Positions 1 to 48,400 of a stretch of DNA of 64,000 bases are shown in pieces. Source of the DNA: Chitinophagales bacterium (lineage in GTDB: Bacteria; Bacteroidota; Bacteroidia; Chitinophagales; Chitinophagaceae); the NCBI GenBank assembly GCA_015654595.1, contig JAATGQ010000155.1, forward strand, positions 81,817 through 145,816, read 5' to 3'. Numbering within the stretch: the first letter of the stretch is position 1; every line of letters begins with the position of its first letter. Under the pieces are notes generated by a model. It searched no databases and was not told the origin of the DNA. It worked only from the letters and a program-made list of their open reading frames with translations. The position numbers and the translations under genes were made by a program.

Positions 1-3000
1 AGGCGATAGTCCTGGTCGTTCTTAATATTACTGGCAGCAAGCGCCATCATCGCCAGCTGGTAGGCGTCCTTACTATCGAGCGCTTTTTTGACGGCGGCGG
101 CATATTCCGGCTGTATCTCCTGTCCATAGCCTGCCTGCGTAAGCGCATATACGATATAGATATTGGCTATTTTATCGGGTACGGAAGCAAAGCGGTCGTA
201 GCCGCCGGATTTGAGCGTGAAGCCGCCGTGTCCATTTCTACGGTTCAGCAGGAAGTCTTTTGTCCGTTGGAGCATCTTTTTGTCGACGTCGAGAAATTCC
301 TGCATGGCGGTGAATTCCAGTAAGCCGTAGGCGGTCAGCGCTTCGTGTGCGGGGGCTTTGCCAAACCACTCGAAGCCGTTCTCGGAGGTTTCGAAGCCGA
401 TCAGTTTTTTATAGCCGTGCTCGATATAACTCATCGCCTTCTTTTCTATTTCGGGGTTGGATTTGCCTGTCTGCCGCAGGTACTTCAGGATAAATATATT
501 GGGATAGGTTGTCGATGAAGTTTGTTCAAAGCAGCCGTAGGGTTCCTGCAGCATGGATTCGATGCCGTTGAGCAGCTGGCCTTCAACGTCTTTATAGACG
601 TGAAGGGTAGCATGAAGGCTGCCGGGGATCGTTTTGTTGATGACGAGGTTTTGATTGGTTGAAGTATTTCCGGAGATCGTTTTTCTGATCGGAAAGCCTT
701 TTGCTGCTGCAGTAATGGGCAGAGTGACCGATTCATTGCCGAGATTGCCGGTGACTTTGAATTCTATTTGTCCGGTGGTCGGGTTGGTTGCGGAGAGTGG
801 GACGAGTAATTGTTGGGTGGCGTCTGGGCCAAGGTTGAAGGTGGTTGCGGGTGTGCTGCTTTGGATGTTGGGGGGCAGCGAGAGGGTAAGGACGCCGTCT
901 AAGGGCTGGCTGGCGTTATTCTTTATGACGACAGGAATAAGCGCTTTGTCGCCGACGGTCAGGTAGGGGGGGATCTTGACGTCTACGCTGAGGGCGGCTT
1001 TTGCGGCATAGGTTGTTTCGATACGACCGGGTTGTCCATTGAAGCCTATTCCTTCGGCGATGGCGCGGAAGGTGGTAGTAGCGTCGGAGTTGTAGAATTC
1101 CAGTGTGGCTTTTCCATCGCGGTTGGTTTGTACTACCGGATTCCAGTAGATGGTCTCGCGGTAGTCGTTGCGGGTTTCGGGCGCGATGGAGGTATATTTT
1201 GGAGCGTAGAATCGGCGGGCAACGGTATAAGAAGGGGTGTTGACGATGAAGTTTTCCGAAGCGTAGTGGCTGTTCCTTGTCAGATCTATGTGTATTTTGC
1301 CGTAAAGGGCGGTTTTTGTGGTGATCAGGATGACGCCGTTGGCGGCCCGGGATCCGTATATCGAGACGCTTGCTGCGTCTTTTAATACCGAGATGCTGGA
1401 AATGTCGTTGACGTTGATTCCGCTGAGGTTGTATTTTTCCTGTGGTATGCCGTCTATTACGAGCAGCGGGTCATTGCCGTTGTGTAGTATTCCGGCTCCC
1501 CTTATGGCTATACGGTTCTCTTGTTCATTATTGGCGAAGTGGTTGATCTCTAGTCCTGCGGCTCTTCCTTCCAATGCTACGGGCATATCATTGACCGGAA
1601 CGGCGGCGAGGTCATTTCCGGTGACAATGGTGACGGACCCGGCGATGCCTTTTCTTCTTTGGACGCCATAGCCTATGACTACTACTTCATTTAACGCCTG
1701 GTTCTTGTTGATATTCAGGGCGGGGAACTCTGCCTTTGTCTTAAGGCCGACTGGCGGGAGGTGCTGTTCATTTGGTTGTTGCGGGTGTGGGACAGGTTGT
1801 GGGAGGGGCGCTTTTAATGGGGGTGCGAAGGGGTCATCGGGGGTTAATTTTTTTATGGCGTCGTCTTTGAGCGGGTTATATCCGATCCCGTTGTTGATCA
1901 CTTTGATCGAGATCTTATCTTTTTTGTGTAGAGACTGTGCCAGCAGCATATAGCTATCCCTACCCTGTAGATCGGGGAAGAAGAACTGGCCGTCTTTCAG
2001 CTGTTGTTTGATCACTTTGCCGTTGTAGATATTGTGGATCAGCAGGATGGTAGAGGGGATGGGCTGGCCTTTTTCGTTGGTGACCATACCGCTGACTATA
2101 TTCGTTTCTTCGGGCGTGTATTTTAGCTGGCGTGCCTGTGTGACCTCGTCGATAAAGTCAAAATAGCGATAGCCATTGGTGAGCATTACGAGGTCGAGGG
2201 CGGCGAGCGCTTTTGGCTCCTCCTTTTTAAAATAGAATTGCGGTTCTTCTATCCTGCCTTGCAGTTCAGAGCTCATCAGCAGCCAGGAGAGGATATGATC
2301 CTGTTTGTCGTCTGCGAGGGTCCAGAGTTTGTCGTCTACGACAGAAAGAGAAAGATTCGAGGGGATAGCGGTTCCCTTTTCATCGGTCGTCGTAATGGTC
2401 ATCGATACCTTTTCTCTGGGCAGATAAGTTTGTTTGTCGGGGGTGATCGTGATGTGCAGCTGGCGGTCGGGGTTCAGGAATACGATCCTTTCGGCCAGCG
2501 GAGTTTTGTTTTCGTCGTAGAGGGTGAGACGGGTGATACCCATCGGGAAGATCTTTTCGTCGATGGGGAATTCGTTGACCCCTTTTTTGAGTGACAGTGT
2601 CTTAGAATAGTAGGGGACGCTCTTTGCCTGGCCCGTGAGGTGGATGGCGGCCGCGTTCGAGGCGATGAGTTTTACATGGATTAGGCCGTTTTTTTTACTG
2701 ACATTCATCACGATACCTTGTGGGGCTGCTTTTGGAAGCACGTACTGTTCCTTTATGCCGGCTGGGGAGGTGATGGTCGCGGAGTATCTTTTACCAGGCA
2801 GAGGAGTAAAGGTAAGCTGGCCCATTCCAAACTTATAGCTGCTGAAGGAGTCGATCATGTTGCCTTCATCGTCTTTTATTATCCCTTTTACGTCGCTGGG
2901 GTTCCCGTATTCATTGATGGCTTTAAAGGCGAGGTTGGTGGCGAGGCCTTCGACAAAGGTTCCTCCTTCGGGCATGAATTGCAGGTCGATCTTATTCAGT

Positions 3001-3704
3001 GTGATCGGGATGGATCGCGCTATTGATTCCGTGTAAGAATCGTAGGAGACCGTTACGTTTAGCAGCCCGTCGGTTGTCTTTAGCGTGGCAGGGAGCGTAA
3101 AGGAGAGTCGGGCTTTTCCGTTAGTGTTTGTCGTAAAGGGGTGGGTTGCCTGGACGTCGCCTGCCAGGGCAACCGTAAACTGCCCGTTGTGGTTGGCGAT
3201 GGGTTTGTCGTCGAGGCTGCGCATCGAGAAGTCTGCGCTTACTTCGTCGCCTGCGCCGTAACCCTTTTTCGGAAATTCCAGTTTCATCAGTACGCGGGGG
3301 GCGATGATCTTCTGTACGGTAAACTCCTTTGTAAAGAACAGGCTGTCTTTTTCGTTCAGCATCCAGCCCGTATAGCCTTTTAGCTTGTAGATGCCTCCCG
3401 CAGCGTCGGGGTCGAGGGTAAAGGAGCCTTCGCAGTAGCCGTCTTCTACTCGGTAGGTTTGTTTTTCTACGACCGTTCCGGCGGGACCGTATACGTCGAC
3501 GTGGGCGGTCGAGCTGATCCTTGAGGGTTTGTTGCTGGCGCCTCTTACCAGATAAAGTTTGAAGAACACCGTTTCTCCGGGGGAGAAGAAGACGTGGTTG
3601 GTTTGTATATAGATCTTTTCCTTGTCGTAGCTAAAGGAAGGGGATTGCGCTTTGAGAGCAGCAATGCCGGATAAAAGAATGAGCAGGGGGAGTAGACGTT
3701 TCAT
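1..3704 (-). CDS. Alpha-2-macroglobulin-like protein with an inserted TonB-receptor plug domain (C-terminus outside window)
   Basis: About 1,234 codons are present and the 3' end lies beyond the window. It begins with a signal peptide (MKRLLPLLILLSGIAALKAQ) and MG-type beta domains (YIQTNHVFFSPGETVFFKLY). A carboxypeptidase-regulatory-like repeat lies near residue 535 (VSGMVTNEKGQPIP). Residues about 672-790 are a SusC-type plug: NEVVVIGYGVQRR, then DPLLVIDGIP, then ISVLKDAASVSIYGSRAANG. The chain then returns to macroglobulin sequence (YRETIYWNPVVQTNRDGKA) and a thioester-type motif, YGCFEQTSS, with Cys1058. I checked that the start, plug and thioester lie in one frame, so this is a fusion and not a frameshift. 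Bacterial alpha-2-macroglobulins trap proteases through the thioester; the plug implies coupling to TonB and an outer-membrane barrel. The gene lies 5 bp downstream of a plug-less barrel gene, its likely partner. The domain assignment is firm; the function is inferred. Confidence 0.85.
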   Translation of the reverse strand, partial: MKRLLPLLILLSGIAALKAQSPSFSYDKEKIYIQTNHVFFSPGETVFFKLYLVRGASNKPSRISSTAHVDVYGPAGTVVEKQTYRVEDGYCEGSFTLDPDAAGGIYKLKGYTGWMLNEKDSLFFTKEFTVQKIIAPRVLMKLEFPKKGYGAGDEVSADFSMRSLDDKPIANHNGQFTVALAGDVQATHPFTTNTNGKARLSFTLPATLKTTDGLLNVTVSYDSYTESIARSIPITLNKIDLQFMPEGGTFVEGLATNLAFKAINEYGNPSDVKGIIKDDEGNMIDSFSSYKFGMGQLTFTPLPGKRYSATITSPAGIKEQYVLPKAAPQGIVMNVSKKNGLIHVKLIASNAAAIHLTGQAKSVPYYSKTLSLKKGVNEFPIDEKIFPMGITRLTLYDENKTPLAERIVFLNPDRQLHITITPDKQTYLPREKVSMTITTTDEKGTAIPSNLSLSVVDDKLWTLADDKQDHILSWLLMSSELQGRIEEPQFYFKKEEPKALAALDLVMLTNGYRYFDFIDEVTQARQLKYTPEETNIVSGMVTNEKGQPIPSTILLIHNIYNGKVIKQQLKDGQFFFPDLQGRDSYMLLAQSLHKKDKISIKVINNGIGYNPLKDDAIKKLTPDDPFAPPLKAPLPQPVPHPQQPNEQHLPPVGLKTKAEFPALNINKNQALNEVVVIGYGVQRRKGIAGSVTIVTGNDLAAVPVNDMPVALEGRAAGLEINHFANNEQENRIAIRGAGILHNGNDPLLVIDGIPQEKYNLSGINVNDISSISVLKDAASVSIYGSRAANGVILITTKTALYGKIHIDLTRNSHYASENFIVNTPSYTVARRFYAPKYTSIAPETRNDYRETIYWNPVVQTNRDGKATLEFYNSDATTTFRAIAEGIGFNGQPGRIETTYAAKAALSVDVKIPPYLTVGDKALIPVVIKNNASQPLDGVLTLSLPPNIQSSTPATTFNLGPDATQQLLVPLSATNPTTGQIEFKVTGNLGNESVTLPITAAAKGFPIRKTISGNTSTNQNLVINKTIPGSLHATLHVYKDVEGQLLNGIESMLQEPYGCFEQTSSTTYPNIFILKYLRQTGKSNPEIEKKAMSYIEHGYKKLIGFETSENGFEWFGKAPAHEALTAYGLLEFTAMQEFLDVDKKMLQRTKDFLLNRRNGHGGFTLKSGGYDRFASVPDKIANIYIVYALTQAGYGQEIQPEYAAAVKKALDSKDAYQLAMMALAASNIKNDQDYR

Positions 3705-3709
3705 ACTTT

Positions 3710-6130
3710 TTAAAATTGTATGGAGGCGTTAAGGCCAAAACTTTTTGAAGAAGGGAGGTTAAAGAAATCGAGACCGCTGGCATCGGATTGGTCGAACAGG
3801 TGCTGGCTGGGGTCTGCGCCTTTGTAGGCGGACCATAGTATCAGGTTTTCAGCATAAGCCGTGAGTCGTATCCGTTGTAAGTATTTTTTTATATTGATCG
3901 TATAGGCCAGCGAGAGCAGATGCAGCCGGATATTGTCTGCCTTTTGAATGTAGGATTCCGCCACGCCTGTGTAGCCGTATCGTACCCATTTGTTTTGCTG
4001 GACGGGTAGTTGCGGGTTGTAGTTGGCGAGGCTTCGTTCTGCGCCGGTAATGGCGCTTCGGCCGTAGTAGTCGAGCACGGCCTGGGCGCCGTTCCAGACA
4101 TCACCACCCTTTCTGTATTCCCATTCGATGTCGAGGGCTAACCTGCTCCAGGTGATCATATGGGAGAATTTTAGCGTATAGGCTGGTGTCGGGTTGGCGA
4201 TGACGGAAGGTTTATCGCTGGCCAGGGGGAAGCCGTCGGGGCCGATCAGCTTTTTATGATTGGCGTCTCTCAGCCAGGTATTGCCTGTGATCACTCCAAG
4301 CGGCTGTCCCTTTATAAGCGTGTTATGAACCGTGCTAAAGCCTGCTATGGCCAGGCTGTCCTGGCCGTTGTCGATATGCGTTACCGTGTTGGAGTAAGTG
4401 TAAAACGAAATATTGTTGCTGATGCTAAGGTCCCCGTTTATTGCAAAGATGGTTTTGGGGATAAGTGTCAGCTCAAGGCCTTTGTAGCGGATGTCGGCGA
4501 GCGTATTGAGCAGCAGCTGGTGGTTTTCATAGGTTGGGAATGGATTGTTCTTATTGTTGCGGAGAGATAGATCTGCGAAGATGCAGAACCATTCTTGGAC
4601 ATCGATCTCCGCTTTTGCTGTAAACTCCTGGTGTTGTATGGGGGAGGCGAGCATAAAGCTTTGCAGCTCTGTCGTCGGCATAAAAGAGAAGAATTGTTGA
4701 GGGGACAGTTGTGTCAGCAGGTAAGGAGTGTATGAATGGTTCAGGTTGGGTTCACTATAAAAAGCGCTGTAGGTGGCTGCGAGCTTTATCCAAAGGCCGC
4801 GCAGATTGTGGCCGGCTGCAAAGGCACCGAGTTCTGGAAGGAACCAGCTGCTTTTTTGGGTGGTGGTGGAGTGGTAAACCTTATCGCCGATGTTCAGGCC
4901 TGTATTGAAATAGTCTCTTTCATAGGTGGCATTGAAAGAAAGCGTTCCCTCGTTGGAAGCCCTGGTATAGTGATAGAAGGCTGCTGCGTCGGGATAGGCA
5001 ATCTTTATGTCGTCGTTGTTGTAGTGATAATTGATGGTGGCGCTGGATTGCAGGTGGTCTATGGGGTGCTGGATCTTATAAGTGCTGTAGGCGGCGGCGG
5101 TATAGTGTTTTTCGTTTTGTTGCCGGGTGTAAGGAAGTCCTGTTGGATAGAAGGCTGTGCCTGGTTTTAGCGATTGGTTGCTGTTTTGGTCGATCGCGTC
5201 TAAGGACGAACTAAGGCCAAAGTTGAAGGTCCCTTTTGCTTTTTCTAAGGCGAGGCTGCCTGTCTGTTGCGTAAGCCGGTCGTAATGGCCGTTGTGATTT
5301 AACAGGAATAGCGGGTTGTCGGCCTGGTTGCTATAGGCTTTTTGCGGGTTTTGTGCGTTGCCATAGCTGATCGGCGTAAGCAGTGCGTTCTCATAGACGC
5401 GGTTCAGAAAGCCGTTGCCGTTGTCGTTGGAGAAGTCGGATGAGAAATAGTTGTATGCCCCTTTTATCGAGATCTTTTTGATGAACTTTTCGACGGATAG
5501 CGAGAGCCTGTCCTCGTTATTGGTGTTGTCGGGTATTGTCTTGTTTTCATGGATGTGGTTCGTGGCAAGAAAAAAGGACCAAAGGGGGGTGTATGAATTT
5601 GCCAGTATGTTTGCCTTTGCAGAAAGCGAGTGGCTGAGCAGATAGCCTTTGCGGAACAGGTTGTTGTTGTATACCGGGCCATCGTAGGCGGCGGTGTGGA
5701 TGGCGGGGCCATAGCTGAATAGTTCGTTTGTTTCCGGTCCAAGCCAGGTTAGTTGTCCGTTGCGGCTTTCGCCTTGTACGTATTCATTTTGCAGTGCGGG
5801 TTTTTTGTTGGTTGTCCGGACGGCGGCAGCGATTGTGTAATCGCCGCTGATCCTAAGGAATCGATTGTCGGCGGGAATGAGGTCTATGCCGCCATTATGT
5901 ATACTAACGGTTCTTATTCCCCGATAAAAGATATTGTTGTAGTTGGTGAAGGCCTTTTTCAGGCGGAGTGGTTTTGTGGTGTCTTTATTTGCCTTGGTGA
6001 TGGTTGGAAGACTATCGGTTTCGATCAGCGATTGATAGTCTGATGAGGTGATGGGGGTTACGGGTTGCTGCGCGACTGCGGGTGGTAAGGCCAGCAGAAG
6101 GATGAGCAGGGTGTGTAATAGTTTGTGCAT
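3710..6130 (-). CDS. SusC/RagA-type outer-membrane beta-barrel lacking a plug domain
   Basis: About 806 residues if it starts at the ATG at 6130 (MHKLLHTLLILLLALPPAVA, a clear signal peptide); a TTG two codons upstream is less likely. The C-terminal part is typical SusC barrel: AENLILWSAYKGADPSQH followed by a closing strand SKSFGLNASIQF ending in Phe. What is missing is notable. After the signal peptide and about 55 linker residues the barrel sequence starts, with none of the usual plug motifs (VVVGYG, VLKDASATAIYGSRGANG). Normal SusC proteins are about 1,000 residues and carry both plug and barrel. Those plug motifs occur in the next gene of the operon, 5 bp downstream, inside an alpha-2-macroglobulin protein. 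The two are probably made together and assemble as a split receptor. The substrate is unknown. Confidence 0.82.
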   Translation of the reverse strand: MHKLLHTLLILLLALPPAVAQQPVTPITSSDYQSLIETDSLPTITKANKDTTKPLRLKKAFTNYNNIFYRGIRTVSIHNGGIDLIPADNRFLRISGDYTIAAAVRTTNKKPALQNEYVQGESRNGQLTWLGPETNELFSYGPAIHTAAYDGPVYNNNLFRKGYLLSHSLSAKANILANSYTPLWSFFLATNHIHENKTIPDNTNNEDRLSLSVEKFIKKISIKGAYNYFSSDFSNDNGNGFLNRVYENALLTPISYGNAQNPQKAYSNQADNPLFLLNHNGHYDRLTQQTGSLALEKAKGTFNFGLSSSLDAIDQNSNQSLKPGTAFYPTGLPYTRQQNEKHYTAAAYSTYKIQHPIDHLQSSATINYHYNNDDIKIAYPDAAAFYHYTRASNEGTLSFNATYERDYFNTGLNIGDKVYHSTTTQKSSWFLPELGAFAAGHNLRGLWIKLAATYSAFYSEPNLNHSYTPYLLTQLSPQQFFSFMPTTELQSFMLASPIQHQEFTAKAEIDVQEWFCIFADLSLRNNKNNPFPTYENHQLLLNTLADIRYKGLELTLIPKTIFAINGDLSISNNISFYTYSNTVTHIDNGQDSLAIAGFSTVHNTLIKGQPLGVITGNTWLRDANHKKLIGPDGFPLASDKPSVIANPTPAYTLKFSHMITWSRLALDIEWEYRKGGDVWNGAQAVLDYYGRSAITGAERSLANYNPQLPVQQNKWVRYGYTGVAESYIQKADNIRLHLLSLAYTINIKKYLQRIRLTAYAENLILWSAYKGADPSQHLFDQSDASGLDFFNLPSSKSFGLNASIQF

Positions 6131-6223
6131 AAGCAATCTGTTAATGTGGATCGGCTTCTGGTTTAAGACAGGATGCTTTTGCGAATTCGATTACACACGA
6201 AGGAGAAATAATTTTTTAAATGC

Positions 6224-8143: not shown

Positions 8144-10567
8144 TTATTTTTGATAAGGGTAGATCTCTTTTATCGTTCCATCGCTGTTATAGGTCAGTTC
8201 TGTGACTTTTACGGAGCGTAGATGAGTGACGCCGTCAGATAATGAGGAGTCGTGATAGAAAAGCCACCATTTGCCTTTAAATTCTACGATAGAATGATGG
8301 TTGGTCCAGCCGATCACGGGATGGAGGAGGATGCCTTTATAGGTAAAGGGTCCATAGGGGTTGTCGCCGATCGCGTAGCAGATATAGTGCGTATCGCCTG
8401 TGGAGTAGGAGAAATAGTATTTACCGTTGTATTTGTGCATCCAGGAAGCTTCGAAGAATCTTCTGTTGTTGTCGCCTTGCAGCAGCGGGTTGCCATTCTC
8501 GTCGAGGATCACGACGTCTTTTGGCGTCTCGTCGAACTGCAGCATATCGTTTGTCAGCCGGGCTACTTTTGCGGTGAGGGCGTGGTCGTGTTCTGCGGGC
8601 AGGTGCGAATAGGGGCCGGGTTCGGATGCGTCAAAGCTGCCGGTTCGCCAGCGTTGGAGCTGTCCGCCCCAGATGCCGCCGAAATAGAGATAGACTTTTC
8701 CGTCGTCGTCGGTGAAGACAGCCGGATCGATCGAGAAGCTGTTCCTTATCGCTTCGGGCTGCGGGATGAAGGGGCCTGTTGGCGAATCGCTGACGGCGAC
8801 GCCGATCTGGAAGATACCGTCGGAGCGTTTGGCGGGGAAGTAGAGATAGTACTTGCCGTCTTTTGTCGTTGCGTCGGGGGCCCATAGTTGTTTTTCTGCC
8901 CAGGGTACGTCCTTTACGTGGAGTGCGATGCCATGGTCTGTTGTTTCGCCATTGGGGCTGTCCATCGATAATACGTGGTAGTCTTCCATGGCGAAGTGGC
9001 TGCCGAGGTCATCGAAGGGGATGTCGTTTTCGATATCGTGCGAGGGGTAGATATAGATCTTGCCGTTAAAGACGTGGGCGGAGGGATCGGCGGTATAGAT
9101 ATGTTTGACGAGGTGCTGGGGGCCGGTATTGGCTTGCCCTTCGGATCGGGCGCTTTCCCGGCTGGAGGTGCGGCGGTCTTTCAGGTCGCCCTCGATCTTT
9201 ACTTCCATTTTCTTATCGATCTCATAAAAGAATAAGAGGGCTGCGCCGATCAGGAAAGGGATCGAGGGATAGATGCTCACGAGCAGTTTGGTTCCCTGAA
9301 TGGCGCCTTCTGTCTGGACCGCGCTGTTTGGCGCGTAGTGGTACAGTCCAAGTATCCAGGTGAGCAGGGCGCTGCCGATACTAAGACCCGCTTTCAGACC
9401 TACCATCATCGCGGAGAAGATGATCGCTGTTGCGCGGCGGTTGTTCTTCCATTCGCTGTAGTCGGCGACGTCGGCGATCATTGCCCATAGTAGAGGGATG
9501 GTGATACCGTAAAAGAAGCCGTGCAGGATCTGGGAGAGAAAGATAAGGGCAATGGCGTTTGGAGGAAAGAAAAAGAACACAAGCAGAAAAGCGGTTGATA
9601 GAAATAGCCCTATGCCATAGACGTCTCTTTTGCCGTATTTGTCGGCCAGTCTTTTCGAGAAGGTGATGCCGACGATCATGAAGATGATGCCGCCAGCGTT
9701 GAACAGCCCAAAACTTGCAGAGACGGGGTCTTTTCCAAAGATGGTCAGCGTAGTGATAACGGGTGTCATCACGCGGGTCAGGCTATCCTTGTCGACGTAG
9801 TTTTGGAAGTAGTAGACATAGGCGCCGCCTTTCATCGCCAGCGTGATAAAGATCATGGTGGTGAGCACCAGCATGATGACCCAGGGTTTATTCCGGAACA
9901 GGTCGCCGAGGTCTTCTTTGAGGCTTGACTTCTGTTCCGGTTTTGGTACGATCCTTTCCCTTGTCGTAAAGAAGGTGATCAGCAGCATTCCGGCGCCGAT
10001 AACGGCGAGCCAGGTCATTACCTTTTCGATGCCTATGGCTTTGTTGCCGCCGCCTGCCGTCTCGATGATAGACAGCATAAAGGCCTGTACAAAGAACTGC
10101 GCAAACATTACGGCTACGAACCGGTAGGCGGAGAGGCTGTTGCGTTCTTTCATATCGCCGGTGATCACGCCGCTGAGCGCGGAGTAGGGCAGGTTGTTGG
10201 CGGCATAGAGTAACAGCAGCAGCGAGTAGGTAACGACAGCGTAGATCACTTTTCCTTTATAGGAGAAATGAGGGGTGGTAAAGGCGAGGACGGCTATCAC
10301 GCCAAGGGGTATGGCGGTAAACAGTATCCATGGTCTGAACTTGCCCCATCGGGATTGTGTGCGGTCAGCCAATGCGCCGATGATCGGGTTAAAGCCAAAG
10401 GCTGCGACGAGGCCCACGGCAAGGATGATGACAGAGGAGTGAGCGGGAGCGAGGTGGTATATATCCGTATAAAAGTAAGCGAGGTAGGTTACGAGGGTTT
10501 GGAAGACCAGGTTGGCGGCGAGGTCGCCGAGGCTATAGCCGATCTTCTCCAGGATGGACATCTTCAT
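8144..10567 (-). CDS. GPH-family sugar:cation symporter fused to a GH43 glycoside hydrolase
   Basis: An 807-residue continuous frame with two parts. Residues 1 to about 450 are a glycoside-pentoside-hexuronide (MelB/XynB-like) MFS symporter: KIGYSLGDLAANLVFQT at the start, GALADRTQSRWGKFRPWI between early helices, and about 12 membrane segments. After a charged linker (residues about 455-480) comes a GH43 five-bladed propeller. Its acids are Asp near 491 (YTADPSAHVF), the Asp of FSIDPAVFTDDDGK near 612, and the acid Glu near 705 (RFFEASWMHKYNGK). There is no second signal peptide, and symporters of this family have cytoplasmic ends, so the hydrolase should sit in the cytoplasm at the exit of the transporter and cut imported xylo- or arabino-oligosaccharides. 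The start codon overlaps the stop of the upstream GH115-GH10 gene (ATGA type). These are usually separate adjacent genes in Bacteroidota; here they are one chain. Confidence 0.88.
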   Translation of the reverse strand: MKMSILEKIGYSLGDLAANLVFQTLVTYLAYFYTDIYHLAPAHSSVIILAVGLVAAFGFNPIIGALADRTQSRWGKFRPWILFTAIPLGVIAVLAFTTPHFSYKGKVIYAVVTYSLLLLLYAANNLPYSALSGVITGDMKERNSLSAYRFVAVMFAQFFVQAFMLSIIETAGGGNKAIGIEKVMTWLAVIGAGMLLITFFTTRERIVPKPEQKSSLKEDLGDLFRNKPWVIMLVLTTMIFITLAMKGGAYVYYFQNYVDKDSLTRVMTPVITTLTIFGKDPVSASFGLFNAGGIIFMIVGITFSKRLADKYGKRDVYGIGLFLSTAFLLVFFFFPPNAIALIFLSQILHGFFYGITIPLLWAMIADVADYSEWKNNRRATAIIFSAMMVGLKAGLSIGSALLTWILGLYHYAPNSAVQTEGAIQGTKLLVSIYPSIPFLIGAALLFFYEIDKKMEVKIEGDLKDRRTSSRESARSEGQANTGPQHLVKHIYTADPSAHVFNGKIYIYPSHDIENDIPFDDLGSHFAMEDYHVLSMDSPNGETTDHGIALHVKDVPWAEKQLWAPDATTKDGKYYLYFPAKRSDGIFQIGVAVSDSPTGPFIPQPEAIRNSFSIDPAVFTDDDGKVYLYFGGIWGGQLQRWRTGSFDASEPGPYSHLPAEHDHALTAKVARLTNDMLQFDETPKDVVILDENGNPLLQGDNNRRFFEASWMHKYNGKYYFSYSTGDTHYICYAIGDNPYGPFTYKGILLHPVIGWTNHHSIVEFKGKWWLFYHDSSLSDGVTHLRSVKVTELTYNSDGTIKEIYPYQK

Positions 10568-13500
10568 AATGAGGTTTTGGTTGCGATGACGTTGAAGTAA
10601 ACAAGTTTTGGCTGAAAGTCCCGGTCGAACAGTAAGGGGTAGTTGGTCCGGCCAAGGATTGGCCAGTCGTTAAGCCAGGACTGGCTGTCGTTTACGCCCC
10701 AGAACGTGACGCGGCTGATATTCCTGCGGTACTTCAGGAAGAGTCTGAACAGGCTGACGTAGGCGTCTGACTGGATGGCTGCGATCGAGTCCGGAAGGTT
10801 ATCCGGGTAGGGGTTCATCGCTGCGCTGCCCCTGGCTATTGCGTTGACGTCGGCGGTATTGCCGTTCTTAGGGTTGGGCAGGACGCTGAGGTCAAGTTCC
10901 GTGAACATCACTTCGATGCCGAGCGCCGAGAAGGCTTTTATACTTTCCTCGATCTCCTTTAGCGGGACATTGCGGGCATTCCAGTGGCCCTGGATACCGA
11001 CCCCGTCGATGCGGACGCCAGCGGCCTGGATCTTTTTTATCAGCGCGATGGCGCCTGCTCTTTTTGCCGGTTGTTCGATATTATAGTCGTTGTAATAAAG
11101 CTTGGTATGCGGCGCCGCTTTTTGCGTTAGCCGGAAGGCTTCTACGAGATAGCCGGGGCCGAGCTTTTGGAGGAAGATGGAGTTTCGGAGCGTTCCGTCT
11201 TCGTTTAGCGCTTCGTTTACTACGTCCCAGGAATAGACCTTGCCGTCATAGCGGCTCGCGAGTGTCGTAATATGGTGTTGGAAGTATTCGCGGACCGAGT
11301 CGGCGCTTTTCATTGTCTCCATGAAGGAGGGCAGCTGGCTGTGCCAGATCAGGTTATGGGCGTTGATCCTGATGCCGTTGTGCTGTCCGTAGGCGACCAG
11401 TTTGTCGGCCAGGTCGAAGTTGAACGTATTCCAGCGGGGCTCGATCACTTCCGCTTTCATGATATTTTCCGGTGTGACTGCGTTGAACTGTTGTTTGATC
11501 AGCTGGTCTGCCTCCGGATCTTTTTGTTCAATCTGTGTGGCGTCCATAGCGGTTCCGATAAGGAAGTCGTTTTTGAAGACTTCTTTCAGGCTTGAGGTGT
11601 TCTGGGGGGCGTTGTTGCCGGCTTTTGCTATTGACGGGCCAAGATAGCTGGGTTTCATGCCGCCAAAGTCGAGGACGAGTTTTTGCAGGATGATGGAAGG
11701 GCTTATCATCGTATAGTGAAGGGTGTGTGGTCCTTTTGCCGTGATAGGATGGCGGGTGGTCGTTATGATGATATTGTTGGCGACCCAGTTACTCCATTCC
11801 TTTTGGTTGTGGTCGTCCTTGTCGATGGAGACCGTTTGTGGCTGATCGTTGTCGATGGAGACCGCATATTGGAGACCTTTGCTCTCGCCCGAAAAATTCA
11901 GGGTGGGAGAGAAATAAAGGTTGACGTTGAGGTTGCCGGTATCTGTTGCGTCGAAGTCATAGTCGAGGCTGGGCGGATTGGCGGCGGGAGTTGCCGTTAC
12001 CGGAAAGGTAGTGATGCCGTCGCCGTCGCGGCCGATGTTGGGAATGATATGCCATTCGATCCCGTTGGTTTCCTTTTTCCGGCTGTAGTGGGAGGCGGGG
12101 AATACAAGAGTGGTGTTGTCGATGGCTTGTGTGGTGTCGGCGGGGCCATCTGGTATCGCCGGCATTTTCTGGTGTTCCGGTTGCTGCCAGTACGTATAAC
12201 CGATATGCGTCTGGTCCATCATGTGGTTCCACTTGCCGTTGCCGAGCTGGTTGTATTCGAGGCTGATCAATGAGTCTTCGGCATAGTATTCCCAGGCTTT
12301 GGCAGCGTTGTGTTTAGCGACGGCGGTATAAAGGTTTTGGAGGTTGGCAAAGGCTTTAACGGGGTGGAGGACCAGTTCAAAATAAGTGTCTTTATATTCA
12401 GCCGGGAGCGCTTCGTTGATGGTTTCAGCGCGGGTGACGAGTCGGTTCCAGTCGTTGGTGATGCGGTTGAGCTCGTTATAATCCTGGAGGCTGTAGGTGT
12501 TGGCGTCGAGGAGTTCCGGTTTTCGTCTCGATGCGTATTGTGCGTAGGTCCGGAGTATCCTGCCGATCCCGCTGGCGTAGGCGGGACCGAACTGGGTGGC
12601 GGCCCAGGCGGTATAGTACTGGTCGAGATTGTTTTCATTCCATTCGCCGACATTCCATGCGTAGTCGAGGAAGAAGGAGATGGGGAGTTCCATTGGTTTC
12701 AGGTCGCCGACATTGACGATCCAGATATCTTTTACCTTATGGCTGTAGGCGAGGTGCATTTGCTCCCAGACGCGGGCGATATTGTTGGTGTTGATCCATT
12801 TATAATTGCGGGGATCACCGACGTAGTCGAAATGATAGTAGATGCCATAGCCGCCGGATCTCGGTTTGGTGTCGATGGGGGGCAGTCTGCGGATATTGCC
12901 CCAGTTGTCATCGCAGAGGAGCAGGGTTACGTCGTCGGGTACGCGCATGCCTTTGTCGTAGTAGTCTTGTACTTCTTTATAGAGGGCCCAGAGTTGTGGG
13001 GTTTTGTTGGCGGGTTTACCCGTGACCGTTTCGAGTATCTTGCGTTGGTCGGCGACGATATTTTCGAGGAGTTGGATGTTGGCGCCTTCCGTCATGGGCA
13101 TGTCGCCGTCGCCGCGCATGCCGATAGTGACGATGCTTTCGTGGTGGTCCATGTTTTCGATGCCTTTTTTCCAGAAGGCCTGGAGTGTGGCTTTGTTGTC
13201 GTCATAGTTCCAGGGGCCGTGGCCGTAGCGTTTCCATTCCTGTTGTGCGCGTAGCATCGGTTCGTGGTGGTAGGTGCCCATCACGATGCCCCATTTGTTG
13301 GCGAGGACCGGATTGAGTGTGTCGTCGTCATTAAAGGCGCTGCCCCACATGGCGGGCCAGAGGTAGTTGGCTTTCAGTCTTAGCAGCAGTTCGAAGACGT
13401 GTTCGTACATGCTGTGGTTAAAGCCGCCGAACTTTTCTTTTGTCCAGCCAGAGAGGGCGGGGGCTTCGTCGTTGAGGAAGATACCGCGGTATTTGACCGA

Positions 13501-14037
13501 GGGGCCGGTGGATCGATAGGGCTCGGGCCCGATGTAGACTTCCGATTTCTTTTTGGCGGGGACGTCGGCCCACCAGTACCAGGGGGAGACACCCATCTGG
13601 CGGGAGAGTTCGAATACCCCGTAGGCGGCGCCGCGTTTGTCGCTGCCGATGATAAAGAGTTTATTGTTGAGGACCTGGATGGCGAAGGCTTCCCATTTCC
13701 CTTTTATACCGCTGACGTCGAGGTGGTTTTCTTTTATCAGGCGGTTGATGGAGGGGGATCCGTCCAGCGTGCCGATGACAATCCCGGTGGGGGTGGGGTT
13801 ATGAATGATCTCCGGTTTTTTTCCCGTTACCGTGGTGATGTCCTGCTGTAATAGTTCGGCGGTCTTTTGGACCAGCCAGTCGTCGTTCTTGTCCGTATAG
13901 ATCGATGCTGCCCTTGCGGGGCCGGCAACCGGAAAAGAGCCTGGCGTATTCTTTTGCAGCAGGTGCAGCTGTGCCTGGGCGTTAAAGGAGATAGTGGTGA
14001 TCGCCGATGCGACCAGGGGCAAGATCTTATGTTTCAT
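10564..14037 (-). CDS. GH115 alpha-glucuronidase fused to GH10 endo-beta-1,4-xylanase
   Basis: 1,157 residues with signal peptide MKHKILPLVASAITTISFNA. Residues about 20-800 are GH115, an enzyme that removes (4-O-methyl)-glucuronic acid side chains from xylan. Recognisable GH115 stretches are GVFELSRQMGVSPWYWWADV, YRGIFLNDEAPALSGW, NYLWPAMWGSAFNDDD and LLLCDDNWGNIRRLP, followed by a C-terminal beta domain. Residues about 815-1155 are a GH10 (beta/alpha)8 xylanase. Its acid/base is Glu942 in SWDVVNEAL and its nucleophile is Glu1047 in FTELDLS; INAHNLIWHSQLP and RVTFWGVNDSQSWL are also present. One secreted or periplasmic protein thus debranches and cuts glucuronoxylan. It is preceded by the SDR gene (19 bp) and overlaps the symporter-GH43 gene by 4 bp. 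The identity of both domains is secure. Confidence 0.93.
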   Translation of the reverse strand: MKHKILPLVASAITTISFNAQAQLHLLQKNTPGSFPVAGPARAASIYTDKNDDWLVQKTAELLQQDITTVTGKKPEIIHNPTPTGIVIGTLDGSPSINRLIKENHLDVSGIKGKWEAFAIQVLNNKLFIIGSDKRGAAYGVFELSRQMGVSPWYWWADVPAKKKSEVYIGPEPYRSTGPSVKYRGIFLNDEAPALSGWTKEKFGGFNHSMYEHVFELLLRLKANYLWPAMWGSAFNDDDTLNPVLANKWGIVMGTYHHEPMLRAQQEWKRYGHGPWNYDDNKATLQAFWKKGIENMDHHESIVTIGMRGDGDMPMTEGANIQLLENIVADQRKILETVTGKPANKTPQLWALYKEVQDYYDKGMRVPDDVTLLLCDDNWGNIRRLPPIDTKPRSGGYGIYYHFDYVGDPRNYKWINTNNIARVWEQMHLAYSHKVKDIWIVNVGDLKPMELPISFFLDYAWNVGEWNENNLDQYYTAWAATQFGPAYASGIGRILRTYAQYASRRKPELLDANTYSLQDYNELNRITNDWNRLVTRAETINEALPAEYKDTYFELVLHPVKAFANLQNLYTAVAKHNAAKAWEYYAEDSLISLEYNQLGNGKWNHMMDQTHIGYTYWQQPEHQKMPAIPDGPADTTQAIDNTTLVFPASHYSRKKETNGIEWHIIPNIGRDGDGITTFPVTATPAANPPSLDYDFDATDTGNLNVNLYFSPTLNFSGESKGLQYAVSIDNDQPQTVSIDKDDHNQKEWSNWVANNIIITTTRHPITAKGPHTLHYTMISPSIILQKLVLDFGGMKPSYLGPSIAKAGNNAPQNTSSLKEVFKNDFLIGTAMDATQIEQKDPEADQLIKQQFNAVTPENIMKAEVIEPRWNTFNFDLADKLVAYGQHNGIRINAHNLIWHSQLPSFMETMKSADSVREYFQHHITTLASRYDGKVYSWDVVNEALNEDGTLRNSIFLQKLGPGYLVEAFRLTQKAAPHTKLYYNDYNIEQPAKRAGAIALIKKIQAAGVRIDGVGIQGHWNARNVPLKEIEESIKAFSALGIEVMFTELDLSVLPNPKNGNTADVNAIARGSAAMNPYPDNLPDSIAAIQSDAYVSLFRLFLKYRRNISRVTFWGVNDSQSWLNDWPILGRTNYPLLFDRDFQPKLVYFNVIATKTSL

Positions 14038-41735: not shown

Positions 41736-42452
41736 ATGGGTAGGGTTACTGTCTTCTGTTTTCCTTATGCGGGAGGATCGGCGGCTGTCTATAACAGGTG
41801 GAAGGCGTATTTGTCGCCGGAGCTTGTTCTTGAGCCAGTGGAGCTCGCGGGGCGTGGGCGTCGGATGAACGAAGATCTGTATGGCTCTATCGATGAGGCT
41901 GTGGAAGATGTGTTTCAGCAGACGGCGGGGATGCTTAATAGGGGTCCTTATGTTCTTTTCGGGCATAGTATGGGCGCCGCGATCGTCTTCGGACTGGTGC
42001 ATAAGCTACAGGCGATGGGTCATCGGATGCCGCTGCACGTCTTCTTTTCGGGCAGGGGCGCGCCTCATATCCGTAAGAGCAATGAGAAGAAGTATCACCT
42101 GATGGGGGATGCCTTGTTCCGGGAAGAGATCATACAGCTTGGCGGTACGCCGGCCGAATTCTTTGAGTATCCCCAATTGCTGAGCATGTATATGCCGGTA
42201 TTGCGGAATGATTTTCGAATCGTGGAGACGGAGGAGCTCGTCAATACTATTCTTCCTTTAAACGTATCTATCTCTGTTTTTCTGGGTAAGGACGATCATC
42301 TTACGTCCGAGCAGTGTACGGGCTGGAAAGATCATACCCAAAAGGACTGCGTGCTTTACTATTTCAACGGCGGGCATTTTTTTCTGCAGGAGCAGACAGC
42401 GGAGGTGGTGGCTCGTGTCAATTCAATTACGCTATGTTATTTCAGACCTTGA
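41736..42452 (+). CDS. Type II thioesterase of the NRPS cluster
   Basis: 238 residues, alpha/beta-hydrolase. It starts VFCFPYAGGSAAVYNRWKAY. The nucleophile is Ser78 in LFGHSMGAAIVFGL, the Asp lies in FLGKDDHLTSEQ, and the His is in YYFNGGHFFLQEQ. Enzymes of this type are external, cytoplasmic proofreaders that clear wrong acyl groups from NRPS carrier domains. It is the first gene of the cluster, and its last 19 bp overlap the start of NRPS1 (ATG at 42434), so the two are translationally coupled. It is a stand-alone enzyme and does not replace the chain-releasing thioesterase, which is not in this window. Confidence 0.93.
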   Translation: MGRVTVFCFPYAGGSAAVYNRWKAYLSPELVLEPVELAGRGRRMNEDLYGSIDEAVEDVFQQTAGMLNRGPYVLFGHSMGAAIVFGLVHKLQAMGHRMPLHVFFSGRGAPHIRKSNEKKYHLMGDALFREEIIQLGGTPAEFFEYPQLLSMYMPVLRNDFRIVETEELVNTILPLNVSISVFLGKDDHLTSEQCTGWKDHTQKDCVLYYFNGGHFFLQEQTAEVVARVNSITLCYFRP

Positions 42453-45400
42453 ACGAAATGCTTTCGGAACGAAGCCGGCTGGAACGGACCGGCATATCGT
42501 TTATTGTTGCGAGTGAGCGGGAGGAATTCGTCTCCTATTCCTCTTTATATGAGAGGGCTTGCCGTGGGCTTGGCTTTTTGCAGGCGCAGGGGATCAGGCC
42601 GGGGCAGGAGCTTGTCCTGCAGGTAAAGGACAACGAGTTGTTTGTTGTCACCTTCTGGGCTTGCGTATTGGGAGGGATTGTAGCTGTCCCGGTTGCATCG
42701 GGAAAGAATGAAGATCAGAAACAGAAGCTGTTCAATATATGGGGGATGCTGAAAGCGCCTTTCTGGATCACTTCTTCCGGGCAACTGGCGGAGATAAGAC
42801 AGTATGCGGTACAGCAGGGGTTGCAGGAAGAGCTGGCGGCCATCGAAAGCCGGTTTGTCGCGGAGTCGGGGATCGCTTCTTACGCGGATAAGGGCAGCCT
42901 GTATACCGCTGCCGCGGATGATATTGCCTTTGTCCAGTATTCTTCCGGTTCGACGGGGCGTCCAAAGGGCGTTGTCCTTCGTCATCGGCAGTTGCTGGCG
43001 AACCTGGATGCGATAAGTCTTAAGTCGGGTTATAACGAGGCGGACAGCATGATCAGCTGGATGCCGCTGACGCATGATATGGGGTTGATCGGGTTTCATC
43101 TGAATCCCCTTTACAGCGGCGTGGATCAATACCTGATGACGCCGGAACTATTTATCCGCCGGCCTTTGTTATGGCTGGACAAGGCGAGCGAGCATAAGGT
43201 GACGGTCCTGTGTTCGCCCAACTTCGGGTATCATTACCTGTTGAAAAATATCAGGGACGGGCAGCAGTACGAATGGGACCTGTCTTCGGTCCGGATCGTA
43301 TACAATGGTGCGGAGCCTGTGTCGGCTCGGCTTTGTCGTGAATTTACCGACAGGCTTGCCGTCTATGGTTTGTGGGAATATGCGGTGCGGCCTGTCTATG
43401 GGCTTGCGGAGGCGTCGCTGGCAGTGACGATGACGAGTCCGGGGCAGCCGGTGAAGACGACGGATCCCGCCGTATCAGGCGGCATGACGCTTGTGACGGT
43501 TGGTCGTGCTATAAACTATTGTGAAGTCAGGATAGAAGACGAGGCGGGTATTATATTGCGGGATGGGCAGCCGGGGCGGGTGATGATCCGCGGGGAGAAT
43601 GTGACGGAGGGGTATTACAACGATCCCGAGGCTACGAGTCGTGTTGTTGGGGCTGATGGCTGGCTGGATACGGGCGATATCGGTTTTCTTATAGAGGGTG
43701 AGTTGACGATTGCCGGGCGTGCAAAGGATATTCTTTTTGTCAACGGACAGAATTTTTATCCGCATGACATCGAACGGGTTTTGGAAGACCTGGCAGACAT
43801 CGAGCTCAATAAGGCGGCGGTTACCGGTTGTACCGGTTCCCGGTCTCAGCGGGAAGAGGTCCTGGTCTTTGTTGTACATAAGGGAGATCTTTCCGTTTTT
43901 ACCGAAAGGGTAAAGGAGATCAGAGCGGTGATCGGGCGGCGGTATGGTTTCGAGGTAGAGGCGGTGATCCCTGTAAAGGAGCTCCCAAAGACTACCAGCG
44001 GAAAGCTTCAGCGGTACAAGCTGGCTGAGCAATACCGGCAGGGCGTTTTTGATGCCGTACTGACAGAGCTGTCGGCGCTGAATCAGGATTGGCAGGAAGC
44101 GGCCGTTCCGGCGGCCAACGTCTCCCAGCAAATCATCCTCGATATCTGGAAACAAGTTTTACAAAAGGATGCGCTTGGGATCCGGCATAACTTTTTTGAG
44201 GCGGGGGGCGGTTCGATACAGGCTATTGCGGCGGGGTTGAGGATGCAGGAAGCATTGGGGATCGTGTTGCCGGGTGATCTGCTGCATCGTTGTCCGACGG
44301 TGGAGGAAGCAGAAGCCGCTATCGGCAGTGCGCATTACCAGGCATTGCAGCCTTTGCCCGTATCGGAAACAAAGACTTACTATCCCGCTGCGTCTGCACA
44401 GCGTCGGCTTTATTATATCTGGGAAGCCGACAAACAATCGACGGGGTATAATATGCCTGTTGCGTTGGAGTGGTATGGTCAGCTGGATGTAGCAAAGCTG
44501 GAAGATACTATCGGGCGTCTTATTGATAACCACGATCTGTTGAGGGCTCGTTTCCGGCTTGAAGAGTTCCCCGTATTCCGGATCATGGAAGATCATTCTT
44601 TTTCTTTGGACGTGGCGCATTGCGCGGAAGATGGATTGGATGGGGTGTTGAGGAGTTTCATTGAGCCGTTAGATTTATCTGAAGGGCCCTTATTTCGTTT
44701 AAAGCTGGTCCGGGTGGGAGAAGAGCGTTACGTGCTTTTCCTGGATCTTCATCATATTATTTCCGACGGCTGGTCGGTCAGCGCTTTTTTACGCGAGCTG
44801 CTGCAGGTCTATACGGGTCAGGAGTCTGTCCGTCCCTTGCTGCAGTTTAAAGATTATGTGGGTTGGGAGGGGGATAAGACGTATGATCCGGCGCTGCTTG
44901 ATTTCTGGAAGCAGGCAATGGGCGGGGAGCTTCCTGTGCTGGCTTTGCCGGCGGACTTTCCACGGCCTGCGCTTTTTCAGGCGGTGGGTGGACATCTTAC
45001 CTTCGCTTTTGACAGCGTCAGTACGCAGCAGCTAAGAGAGGCGGCTGCGGCCAATGGCGTCACCCTTCATGTTTTACTACTTTCTCTTTATACGATCCTG
45101 CTTTATAAATACAGCGGTCAGTCCGAAGTGGTGGTGGGTATTCCTGTAGCCGGGCGGGAGCATCCCGCTTTGCTGGAGATGCAGGGGATGTTTGTCAATA
45201 ACCTTTGTATCCGGACGAGTGTTTCCGGTGGGGAGTCTTTGGCGGAGTATCTCCGGTATTGCCAGGCGGTTGTTGCGGCTGCGATGGAGCACCGCGAGTT
45301 GCTTTTCGAAGATCTTGCGGGGATGCTGGGGGTAAAGCGGGATGCGAGCAGGAATGTCCTTTTTGACACCATGTTTATCTTCCAGGACATGGGGATGCCG

Positions 45401-48400
45401 GACAGCGGACGTTTGAAAAGACATTTTTTCGATACCGGGATTGCGCGGTTTGATCTGTCGATGGAGGTGTTTGATGAAAAGACGCATCTCGATGTGGTTG
45501 TAGAATATGCCAGCAGTCTTTTTCAGAGAGATACGATCCAGCGGATGGCGGATCATTTTGTCAATCTTGCCGGAACGATAGCGGAGAACCTATCGACGCC
45601 GGTTGGAGCGCTGGAACTGTTGTCGCCGCAAGAGTATCAGGAGCAGGTAGTCTCATTTAACCAGACCGGGCAGGCTTATCCTGAAGATAAGACGATCGAC
45701 CAGCTTTTCCGAGAGCAGGTTTTGTTGACGCCGGAGCGGACGGCTCTTTTTTATGAAGATCGGCAGATGAACTATGCCGGGCTGGAAGAAGAAGTGAACA
45801 GGCTTGCTTCAGGGTTGCGCAGACGGGGGATAGGTCAAGGGGATATCGTTGTGATCTGGATGCCTTTGTCGATGGAGCTTGTCATCAGCATCCTGGCGGT
45901 GTTGCGGGTTGGGGCTGCGTATGTTCCGCTGGACGAGGTGATCCCGGAGAAAAGGGCGCAGTATATCATCGAAGACAGCCGGTCGCGGCTGGTGATCACC
46001 GCTTCCGTATATGCGCAATTGAGACAGGAAGGGGAGGGAAAGAGGTTGGAGGATATTACCGGTCCGGATGATCTGGCTTACGTTATTTATACATCGGGGA
46101 CAACGGGGACGCCAAAGGGCGTTTGTATCGGGCACCGGTCCCTGGTGAATTATATTTATTGGGCGGCGGGGGAATACATGGGGCGGGAGAGTGGAGAGAT
46201 GCCGCAGAAAGAAAGGACGATGCCTCTTTTTACTTCTGTCGCCTTTGACCTTACCGTGACGTCTATCTTTACGCCCTTGATCACGGGTGGTGCGATCCGT
46301 ATCTATCGGCAGGCGGAAGAAGGGACGCCGTTGATGCGTATCCTCGAAGAAGGCCTTGTCGATGTGGTCAAGCTGACGCCGGGGCATCTCCGGCTGATAG
46401 CAGCCAGTGACTGGCGGGCTGGCGGGGACTGCAGGATCAAGCGGTTTATCGTGGGAGGCGAAAATCTGACGACTGCACTAGCCTGTGAGGTGGTGCAGCG
46501 GTTTAATGGCAGGCTTACTATTTTTAACGAATATGGACCTACGGAGGCTACTGTGGGTTGTATGATACATCGGTTTGATGTGGCCGACGGCGGTTTTAGC
46601 GTTCCGATCGGGAAGCCCGCAGCGAATACCCGGTTAGTTATCCTGGATAGGTATGGGAAGCACTGCCCGGTCAATGTTGCCGGTGAGCTTTATATATCTG
46701 GGGACGGGCTTGCAAAGGGGTATTTGTACAGACAGGAGTTGACGGATCGCCATTTCATCCTGAACAGGGATGGGGTAAAAGTATACCGAACGGGCGATAT
46801 GGTAAAACGTCTTCCGGACGGTATGATCACGTTTGTCGGGCGGCGGGATCAGCAGGTAAAGATCAATGGCTACCGGGTTGAGCCGGTGGAGGTCGAACGT
46901 CAGCTGATGACGTGTGAGGGAGTGTCGGAGGCGGTGGTTGTACTACGGGGCGATAAAGGCGGACAGTCTTACCTCTGCGCTTATTATACCGGTGTGGAGC
47001 AAGTGCCGGAAGGCGTACTGAAGGGGATGCTGGCCGACAGACTACCTTACTATATGATACCTGAGCGATTGGTGTGGTTGAAAACCTTTCCTTTGACGGG
47101 GCATGGGAAGGTCGATCTTGCAGCTTTGCCTGAGCCGCTGACGGAGGATAGGAGTGAGGGGGAAGGAAATTGGGTGGAGGGGCTGTGTATGCGGGTCTGG
47201 AAAGAAGTGCTGCAGTTGGAGACCGTAAGCCGGAAAGACAGTTTTTATCAGCTGGGCGGGGATTCGATCAAGGCGGTCCAGATCGTTGCCAGACTGGGGC
47301 AGGCGGGTATCCGGGTCAGCGTAAAACAAATACTTACTTATCATACGATAGAGCAGATTGCGGTTGTCGCTGTGACAGAGGCGGATGTTTTTGTGCGGAG
47401 TGGTCCTCTTGTCGGGGAGAAGCCGTTATCGGCTATCGATCGCTGGTTTTTTGGGCAGCGATTTTACCATCCCGATCATTATAACCAGTCCGTATTGCTG
47501 CGGCTGGTCCGGCCTTTGGACCGGGTGTTGCTGGAAAAAGCGTTTACCATGCTGGTCCGGCATCATGATGGATTGAGGTTGAACTATGATAACGAGAAAG
47601 ACATCCTCTTTTATAATCCAGTACACCTGGAGATCTTGTTTACTATTCCGACGCTTTACTCCGAGGCTGAGATGGAGGCTTTTAAAGCCGGGTTCAACCT
47701 GGGCAGCAGTTTGCTGATAAGGGCTGCAATCGTTCAGGGAGCGTATGAAGGAGATTGCCTGTTGATCACGGCTCATCATCTTGTCGTGGATGGCGTTTCC
47801 TGGCGGATACTGTTGGAAGGTCTTTATCATGGCTTCCTGGCGCTCGAGCGTGGGGAGGAATACCAACTCCCCGCCAGCACGAATCCCTGGACTGCGACCG
47901 GCAAGGGGTCGATACAGGTGATGGATTTTCTTCTTCCTTTTGACCATAACGTTTCTGACTGGCGCGTGTGTCATGCGCGTGTCCAGACCTTTAAACTGGA
48001 GCAGGAGCAGACTGCTTTTTTATTAGGGCCTGCCCAGGGTGTCTACCGGACCAATGTTTCCGACTTGCTGAATGTTTCGCTGCTGCTGGCTTTGCGCGAG
48101 TGGACGGGTCAGCGAGAGGCTCTTGTCGTGCAGGAGGGACATGGTCGTGATGGGGATGGGTCGGATGTATCTCTGACGGTAGGATGGTTTACCCGGATGG
48201 TTCCTGTCTTGCTGCATCTGCCGGAGGGTTCGATCGGCGATCAGTTGAAATCCGTGAAGGAGCAGCTGCGGCGGGCTTTTAAAGAGGATAGCGAACCGGA
48301 GGGGATGGCGCCGGTGAGGTTGAACTACCTGGGCGATTTTGGAAATGTTCTCGAGAACGATCTGTTTGCTTATATCGCCGATGCGCGGCAGGACGATGTC

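Follow-up and report, generated by a model that had tools for sequence, protein, structure and literature searches.

To our knowledge, TonB-dependent receptors have been described as single chains that contain both the plug and the barrel, and the separately made plug and barrel of FhuA have reportedly been rejoined in laboratory work. In the plug of such a transporter, the end with the Ton box and the end that leads to the first barrel strand both face the periplasm, and without a plug a SusC barrel would stand open as a wide pore. Bacterial alpha-2-macroglobulins belong to another line of work. According to PMC5764988, macroglobulins of type I are linked with PBP1c, and the type II macroglobulin MagD of Pseudomonas forms a complex in which it is held by MagB. 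In Myxococcus, according to PMC6434023, the TonB-dependent transporter Oar is needed for the TonB-dependent secretion of the protease PopC.

Here, we analysed a 64,000-nucleotide stretch of DNA of a Chitinophagales bacterium (contig JAATGQ010000155.1; hereafter, the window), one end of which carries adjacent genes for a plug-less SusC-type outer-membrane barrel and for an alpha-2-macroglobulin with a SusC-type plug. Like the SusC/RagA transporters (Bt1763, BT2264, and RagA), this pair has a 22-strand barrel fold (predicted), a Ton box, a plug, and candidate lock residues. Unlike them, it has the plug and the barrel on two chains and the plug inside a macroglobulin, and no SusD gene was found adjacent to it with three phmmer queries of limited sensitivity. 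The macroglobulin shares its MG domains, its TED domain with a CxEQ thioester, and its C-terminal MG domain with the type I proteins ECAM (YfhM) of E. coli and SaA2M of Salmonella. It differs from them in having an NTE-like domain, a Ton box, and a plug between the BRD and A2M domains, and in lacking a general lipobox-like pattern. The partner in the pair is an outer-membrane barrel, while it is PBP1c for the type I proteins (PMC5764988). As in the MagD complex, the macroglobulin would be held at a membrane by its operon partner, but the MagD complex is at the inner membrane and lacks a thioester (PMC5764988). The pair also resembles Oar/PopC in that a TonB-dependent barrel handles a large protein linked to proteolysis; Oar, however, has its own plug and its partner differs. 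The barrel and the macroglobulin are each of a known kind and, as far as we have searched, their combination in trans is undescribed: judged by title and abstract, none of the matches listed in a search of the full-text literature dealt with macroglobulins that bear a plug or with a plug supplied in trans. We consider it probable that the two proteins make up one two-chain TonB-dependent receptor, in which the plug of the macroglobulin docks into the neighbouring barrel from the periplasm.

The barrel gene lies at 3710..6136 on the minus strand and codes for 808 aa, or for 806 aa when read from the ATG at 6130. The protein gave no Pfam match at E<=1, and its match to the SusC/RagA model TIGR04056 (69 bits, below the full-length threshold of 368.25) was confined to residues 533-808 on model positions 694-981, which corresponds to the C-terminal third of the barrel. 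The predicted model had a mean pLDDT of 88.8, a pTM of 0.83, and 22 long strands, as counted from the listed elements. In the structural alignment to SusC chains, the barrel proper (ORF residues 92-808, equal to model residues 90-806; 3713..5863, minus strand) starts just past the plug of these chains and ends near their C-terminus; in the best row, residues 92-806 align on residues 210-1016 of Bt1763. The protein is thereby predicted to form a complete 22-strand barrel of the SusC fold. The sequence-only reading had claimed that this barrel has no plug, which was confirmed by Pfam, TIGR04056, and the predicted model alike. A plug hidden in the N-terminus, the alternative that this reading had raised, was looked for and rejected, as none of the three showed one. 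The N-terminus has a short conserved segment, for which a helix is predicted at low confidence, and some relatives carry an NTE domain there.

The macroglobulin gene (1..3704, minus strand) is complete only past the left edge of the window; in the assembly it corresponds to L009:9163-13704 and codes for 1513 aa, beginning with a signal peptide that was recognised by eye. Its domains are all encoded on the minus strand. The MG2 domain (residues 30-110; 3375..3617), which is over the Pfam cut-off, is followed by a partial A2M_BRD match (residues 378-459; 2328..2573) with 20.6 bits against a Pfam cut-off of 22.7 and by a weak, below-cut-off Pfam match to a carboxypeptidase-regulatory-like (NTE-like) domain (residues 537-592; 1929..2096). 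After a linker come the Ton box NEVVVIG (residues 672-678; 1671..1691), which was placed by alignment to SusC, and the SusC-type plug domain (residues 686-791; 1332..1649), for which the Pfam Plug score was 59.6 bits against a cut-off of 23.9. Then follow the A2M domain PF00207 (residues 851-938; 891..1154), also over the Pfam cut-off, and the TED domain (residues 1037-1318; Pfam, 102.6 bits), of which the start lies at 1..596 and the remainder outside the window. The thioester motif GCFEQ of the latter (residues 1057-1061; 522..536) is invariant in the 82 pairs compared below (82/82). The NTE-like domain, the linker, the Ton box, and the plug thus lie between BRD and A2M, which we take to be the place of the bait region in animal macroglobulins. 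As the NTE-like domain precedes the plug, the macroglobulin contains almost all of the N-terminal half of a SusC protein.

The assignment of the plug to SusC was borne out by several comparisons. Residues 667-817 matched positions 74-224 of TIGR04056 with 161.5 bits (below the full-length threshold of 368.25), the TIGR04057 signature scored 60.6 bits against a cut-off of 46.2, and the plug region aligned by sequence to Bt1763 (5t3r_D 86-263 in chain-sequence numbering). The Ton box aligned with LDEVIVTALG of an unsplit SusC from locus L096 and with DEVVVTG of Bt1763 (82-88, with an inferred numbering offset of 25). According to PMC7782687, deletion of the Bt1763 Ton box or its replacement with alanine led to a defect of growth on levan like that caused by deletion of SusD. 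The predicted model of macroglobulin residues 22-1035 had a mean pLDDT of 71.1, with MG domains of moderate to good confidence and a disordered linker ahead of the plug; the pLDDT of the plug block was about 43-59, and 30 at its start. This low confidence may come from a shallow alignment as well as from the missing partner. A Foldseek search with this model returned, among the 50 matches listed, complement/A2M folds only, with TM-scores <=0.46.

The gap between the two genes is 5 bp (3705-3709) and the barrel gene is translated first. Since the macroglobulin covers TIGR04056 positions 74-224 and the barrel aligns by structure on Bt1763 210-1016, the two chains together cover one SusC. The earlier claims that the genes are 5 bp apart in the same order of translation, and that a SusC plug lies between the MG and thioester regions of the macroglobulin, therefore agree with the gap found and with the Pfam and TIGR04056 matches, respectively.

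The conservation of this arrangement was examined at the protein and genome levels. The protein search, in which the best 7994 candidates were scored, gave 86 rows: the window's own barrel, 83 related barrels (P0002-P0084), all without Plug among their precomputed Pfam matches, and two SusC proteins of the ordinary plug-bearing kind (P0085 and P0086). A genome search with the barrel alignment found 229 stretches, the best 80 of which were taken as related loci; they come from Chitinophagaceae, Chryseobacterium, Cloacibacterium, Desertivirga, and several MAGs. A plug-matching macroglobulin adjoins the barrel downstream on the same strand in 79 of these 80 loci (best 80 of 229), and in the remaining one (L067) the contig ends inside the barrel. 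The gap between the genes is 3-5 bp in 71 of the 79 loci, with a crude choice of start codons, and the macroglobulin of L052 is broken into two frames. The pairing, whose absence in other genomes would have spoken against the sequence-only reading, is thus kept.

In a sample of 395 Bacteroidota genomes, scoring was limited to the best two candidates of each genome, and weaker cases may thus have escaped. Four of the 395 genomes (G000, G210, G226, and G021) had a full-length plug-bearing macroglobulin of the subfamily; these four were also the ones with a full-length plug-less barrel, and the two genes were adjacent in all of them. The long barrel matches of G088 and G253 were rejected as split barrels, being unsplit SusC proteins with their own plug. 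A profile of the C-terminal, plug-free part of the macroglobulin found five strong members above 600 bits in this phylum sample (G000, G210, G226, G021, and G133), the next match having 110. The macroglobulin of G133 lacks the plug, and no barrel match at E<=1e-20 was listed for this genome. This protein (L152:6173-10879) has two carboxypeptidase-regulatory stretches and a long linker where the plug would be.

The second sample consisted of 394 genomes of the family, in which the thresholds were E<=1e-100 for the macroglobulin and E<=1e-90 for the barrel. The macroglobulin was present in 24 of the 394 genomes and the barrel in 23, all within those 24; a plug match was found in all 23 macroglobulins paired with a barrel (window included). 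Both genes lay on one contig in 22 of the 23 genomes, 21 of these 22 at the spacing of direct adjacency; about 1.2 kb extra separates them in G628, and in G531 the pair is split over contigs. In G634, the barrel ORF is split over two frames. The twenty-fourth genome, G640, holds a remnant with part of the TED and the C-terminal domain only, without a barrel or plug match. It should be noted that 12 of the 24 family stretches share DNA with the first 80 loci, as judged with a 200-base probe, so the two samples are not independent. The two proteins are complementary: each has what the other lacks, and in the genomes compared barrel and plug are present or missing together, from which the plug is predicted to close the neighbour's barrel.

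The residues that would hold the plug in the barrel were compared in 82 pairs, namely 78 of the 79 loci (L052 was left out), the window, and three genome stretches. The plug residue R735 of the IRG motif (1500..1502, minus strand) is R in 82/82, and K775 (1380-1382, minus strand) is K/R in 81/82. The candidate lock residues of the barrel are E555 at the 'GxE' position (4472..4474, minus strand), acidic in 82/82 (E in 71, D in 11), and E504 (4625..4627, minus strand), which is E/D in 76/82 (E in 72, D in 4). We place E555 at E571 of FhuA and E504 presumably near E522, with a register uncertain by two residues, and we take R735/K775 of the plug and positions 504/555 of the barrel to be the residues that lock plug to barrel in known receptors. 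The other signature arginine of the plug, R786, is R in 64/82. For comparison, 29 MG-plug proteins without TED were drawn from genomes that had no full-length split barrel in the phylum search. In these proteins the first arginine is kept in 21/29 and K/R in 21/29, and the Ton box is mostly degraded. A few Ton boxes are degenerate among the paired macroglobulins. The mean pairwise identity of the plug is 0.42, versus 0.48-0.57 for the MG, TED, and C-terminal parts of the macroglobulin. From the lock residues in the 82 pairs and in the 29 MG-plug proteins, the paired plug still looks constrained in the way expected of a barrel-seated plug, although overall it is less conserved than these other parts of the macroglobulin. 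The mirror-tree correlations of barrel distances with MG1-6 (r 0.97), the C-terminal part of the macroglobulin (0.94), and the plug (0.78) reflect common descent rather than docking and were left out as evidence. The assignment of the macroglobulin plug to the neighbouring barrel in the sequence-only reading thus draws support from adjacency, from joint presence and absence, from the candidate lock residues, and from the unsplit relative described below.

The barrels of G226 (L161), G021 (L162), and P0084 have an N-terminal carboxypeptidase-regulatory (NTE) domain, as in SusC, with no Plug match after it. Meanwhile, the unsplit SusC of L096 has the NTE domain, the plug, and the barrel in one chain, and just after its plug it resembles the start of the split barrels, with 48% over 48 residues shared with the window barrel. 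On the simplest reading of these sequences, the plug would have been removed from a SusC protein and then carried by the macroglobulin. In the plug tree, the A2M plugs do not form one clade; they lie among SusC and anti-sigma-type plugs, with a support of 0.485 for the common node, and the MG-plug proteins without TED are mostly apart. The latter make up a family of MG-domain proteins of ~810-940 aa (~810-900 aa in L153-L160, L165-L167, and L169) that carry a plug and end soon after it, without TED. In the loci fetched, no barrel of the split-barrel family lies beside the examples of this family. Its genes stand in tandem in L153 and L159, and one L159 copy has no plug match.

A second plug protein was found near many of the pairs. 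In 45 of the 80 loci (best 80 of 229; WEEKSELLACEAE), there are genes for an ECF sigma factor and for a plug protein with an anti-sigma-like N-terminus. These are 45 of the 46 loci assigned to Chryseobacterium, Cloacibacterium, or UBA1937, which we take to be Weeksellaceae. The two genes are upstream of the barrel in 44 loci; in L087 they lie downstream of the macroglobulin. Pfam confirmed the sigma domains in one locus, L039. The anti-sigma-like plug protein has a hydrophobic peak fit for one membrane helix in 34/45 and is long in 33/45, with a VWA or YfbK part in the examples scanned. No Pfam anti-sigma domain was found in the proteins scanned, and the label comes from their position and layout. 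Ten further loci of the 80 have a sigma match without the plug protein. An ECF sigma gene and a membrane anti-sigma-like gene near a barrel recall FecIRA-type signalling; unlike in FecIRA, the anti-sigma-like protein itself bears a plug, and with one sigma and one anti-sigma query no such neighbour was found beside the window pair, the only sigma match being at 40610. Membrane anti-sigma-like proteins with a Ton box and a plug are exemplified by L033:7144-9699, L038:7183-9462, and similar Chryseobacterium loci; some of the Chryseobacterium proteins have VWA/YfbK parts, and those of L038 and L168 have a T9SS sorting tail. In G226, a 156-aa protein with a signal peptide recognised by eye and two partial plug matches (L161:7622-8092) lies between the barrel on one side and an ECF sigma gene and a 144-aa neighbour of this gene on the other.

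In the window, the pair stands at the end of a group of carbohydrate genes. At 8144-10567 (minus strand), one 807-aa ORF fuses an MFS_2 sugar transporter and a GH43 domain, and the 1157-aa ORF at 10564-14037 (minus strand) has, by eye, glucuronidase-like and GH10-xylanase-like parts. Further along the window, two neighbouring very long ORFs of 4230 and 2112 aa lie at 49629-62321 and 42314-48652 (both plus strand).

Since both ends of a docked plug face the periplasm, both halves of the macroglobulin would be in the periplasm, under the barrel. The sequence-only reading had suggested that the trap could be tethered to the outer membrane, or that TonB could drive its export or conformational change; a periplasmic body would fit tethering better than surface display or export. 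In the proposed mechanism, the plug would close the neighbouring barrel from below, leaving the macroglobulin body suspended below the outer membrane where the barrel opens. TonB would attach to the Ton box of the macroglobulin and pull on this protein, which would couple the opening of the gate to the macroglobulin. Any protease coming in through the pore, or cutting the flexible linker before the plug, would meet an armed thioester trap. The machine would likely be a pore gated by TonB, with a cork that belongs to a protease trap.

Several other explanations were weighed against the two-chain receptor. A frameshifted or misassembled SusC beside an ordinary macroglobulin, for which only the oddity of the arrangement itself speaks, has a practically negligible probability: the two open frames speak against a frameshift, and the same arrangement recurs in 79/80 loci of other organisms, including a complete genome (L042). 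We also consider it quite unlikely that the plug does not dock at all and serves the macroglobulin as a repurposed periplasmic domain, for instance as a handle for TonB, the barrel having another partner. In favour of this, a plug is present in the MG-domain proteins of ~810-940 aa, with no such barrel next to the examples fetched, and also in VWA/YfbK or anti-sigma-like proteins; because plugs occur on other proteins without an adjacent barrel, the plug alone is no proof of docking. This explanation, however, has to contend with the joint presence and absence of plug and barrel, with the lock residues being stricter in the barrel-paired plugs, and with the open pore that a plug-less SusC barrel would leave. 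The adjacency of the genes could also come from another task shared by the barrel and the macroglobulin. Further points against the two-chain receptor are the low pLDDT of the plug, its lower identity and the few degenerate Ton boxes, distances that follow those of the barrel less closely than the rest of the macroglobulin does, the scatter of the A2M plugs in the plug tree, and the uncertain register of E504.

The remaining alternatives concern what such a pair does. It might be a two-chain importer of peptides or proteins, in which the macroglobulin mainly captures or processes incoming material and does not serve in defence. The barrel is SusC-like, RagA, a homologue of SusC, is part of a peptide transporter (according to PDB titles), and the window pair lies beside carbohydrate genes; nevertheless, we regard an importer as unlikely. 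With three phmmer queries of limited sensitivity, no SusD-like ORF was found in 78 of the 80 loci, and the two loci that have one carry it >7 kb away. The thioester kept in 82/82 points to covalent capture, and by eye no consistent carbohydrate neighbours are seen in the nine loci listed, among which L048 has a fucosidase-like ORF at 21699. A barrel that helps the macroglobulin to the cell surface by means of its plug and with TonB power would have a parallel in the secretion of PopC by way of Oar (PMC6434023). Such an export conduit is very unlikely, as both ends of a docked plug are periplasmic and would hold the macroglobulin body inside; moreover, the three plug-bearing macroglobulins scanned have no Por_Secre_tail (T9SS), and a lipobox-like pattern is present in 2/82 only. 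Finally, the Weeksellaceae loci suggest a receptor with the plug in trans, in which one barrel takes interchangeable plugs on other proteins and the springing of the macroglobulin trap acts as a protease alarm across the envelope, an idea that we put forward tentatively and hold to be doubtful. As the second plug there belongs to an anti-sigma-like protein with an ECF sigma factor next to it, the barrel would be contested by two plugs; once the macroglobulin trap is sprung, the barrel would become available to the anti-sigma plug, and the sigma factor would be released. In the window, the sole plug beside the barrel would be that on the TonB-pulled thioester protease trap.

If the two-chain receptor proposed here is true, it would physically connect the TonB motor with an outer-membrane pore and a complement-like thioester macroglobulin. 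It would be a natural two-part system in which the movement of the plug could be followed separately from the barrel, and it would point to a way in which some bacterial macroglobulins are kept at the outer membrane.
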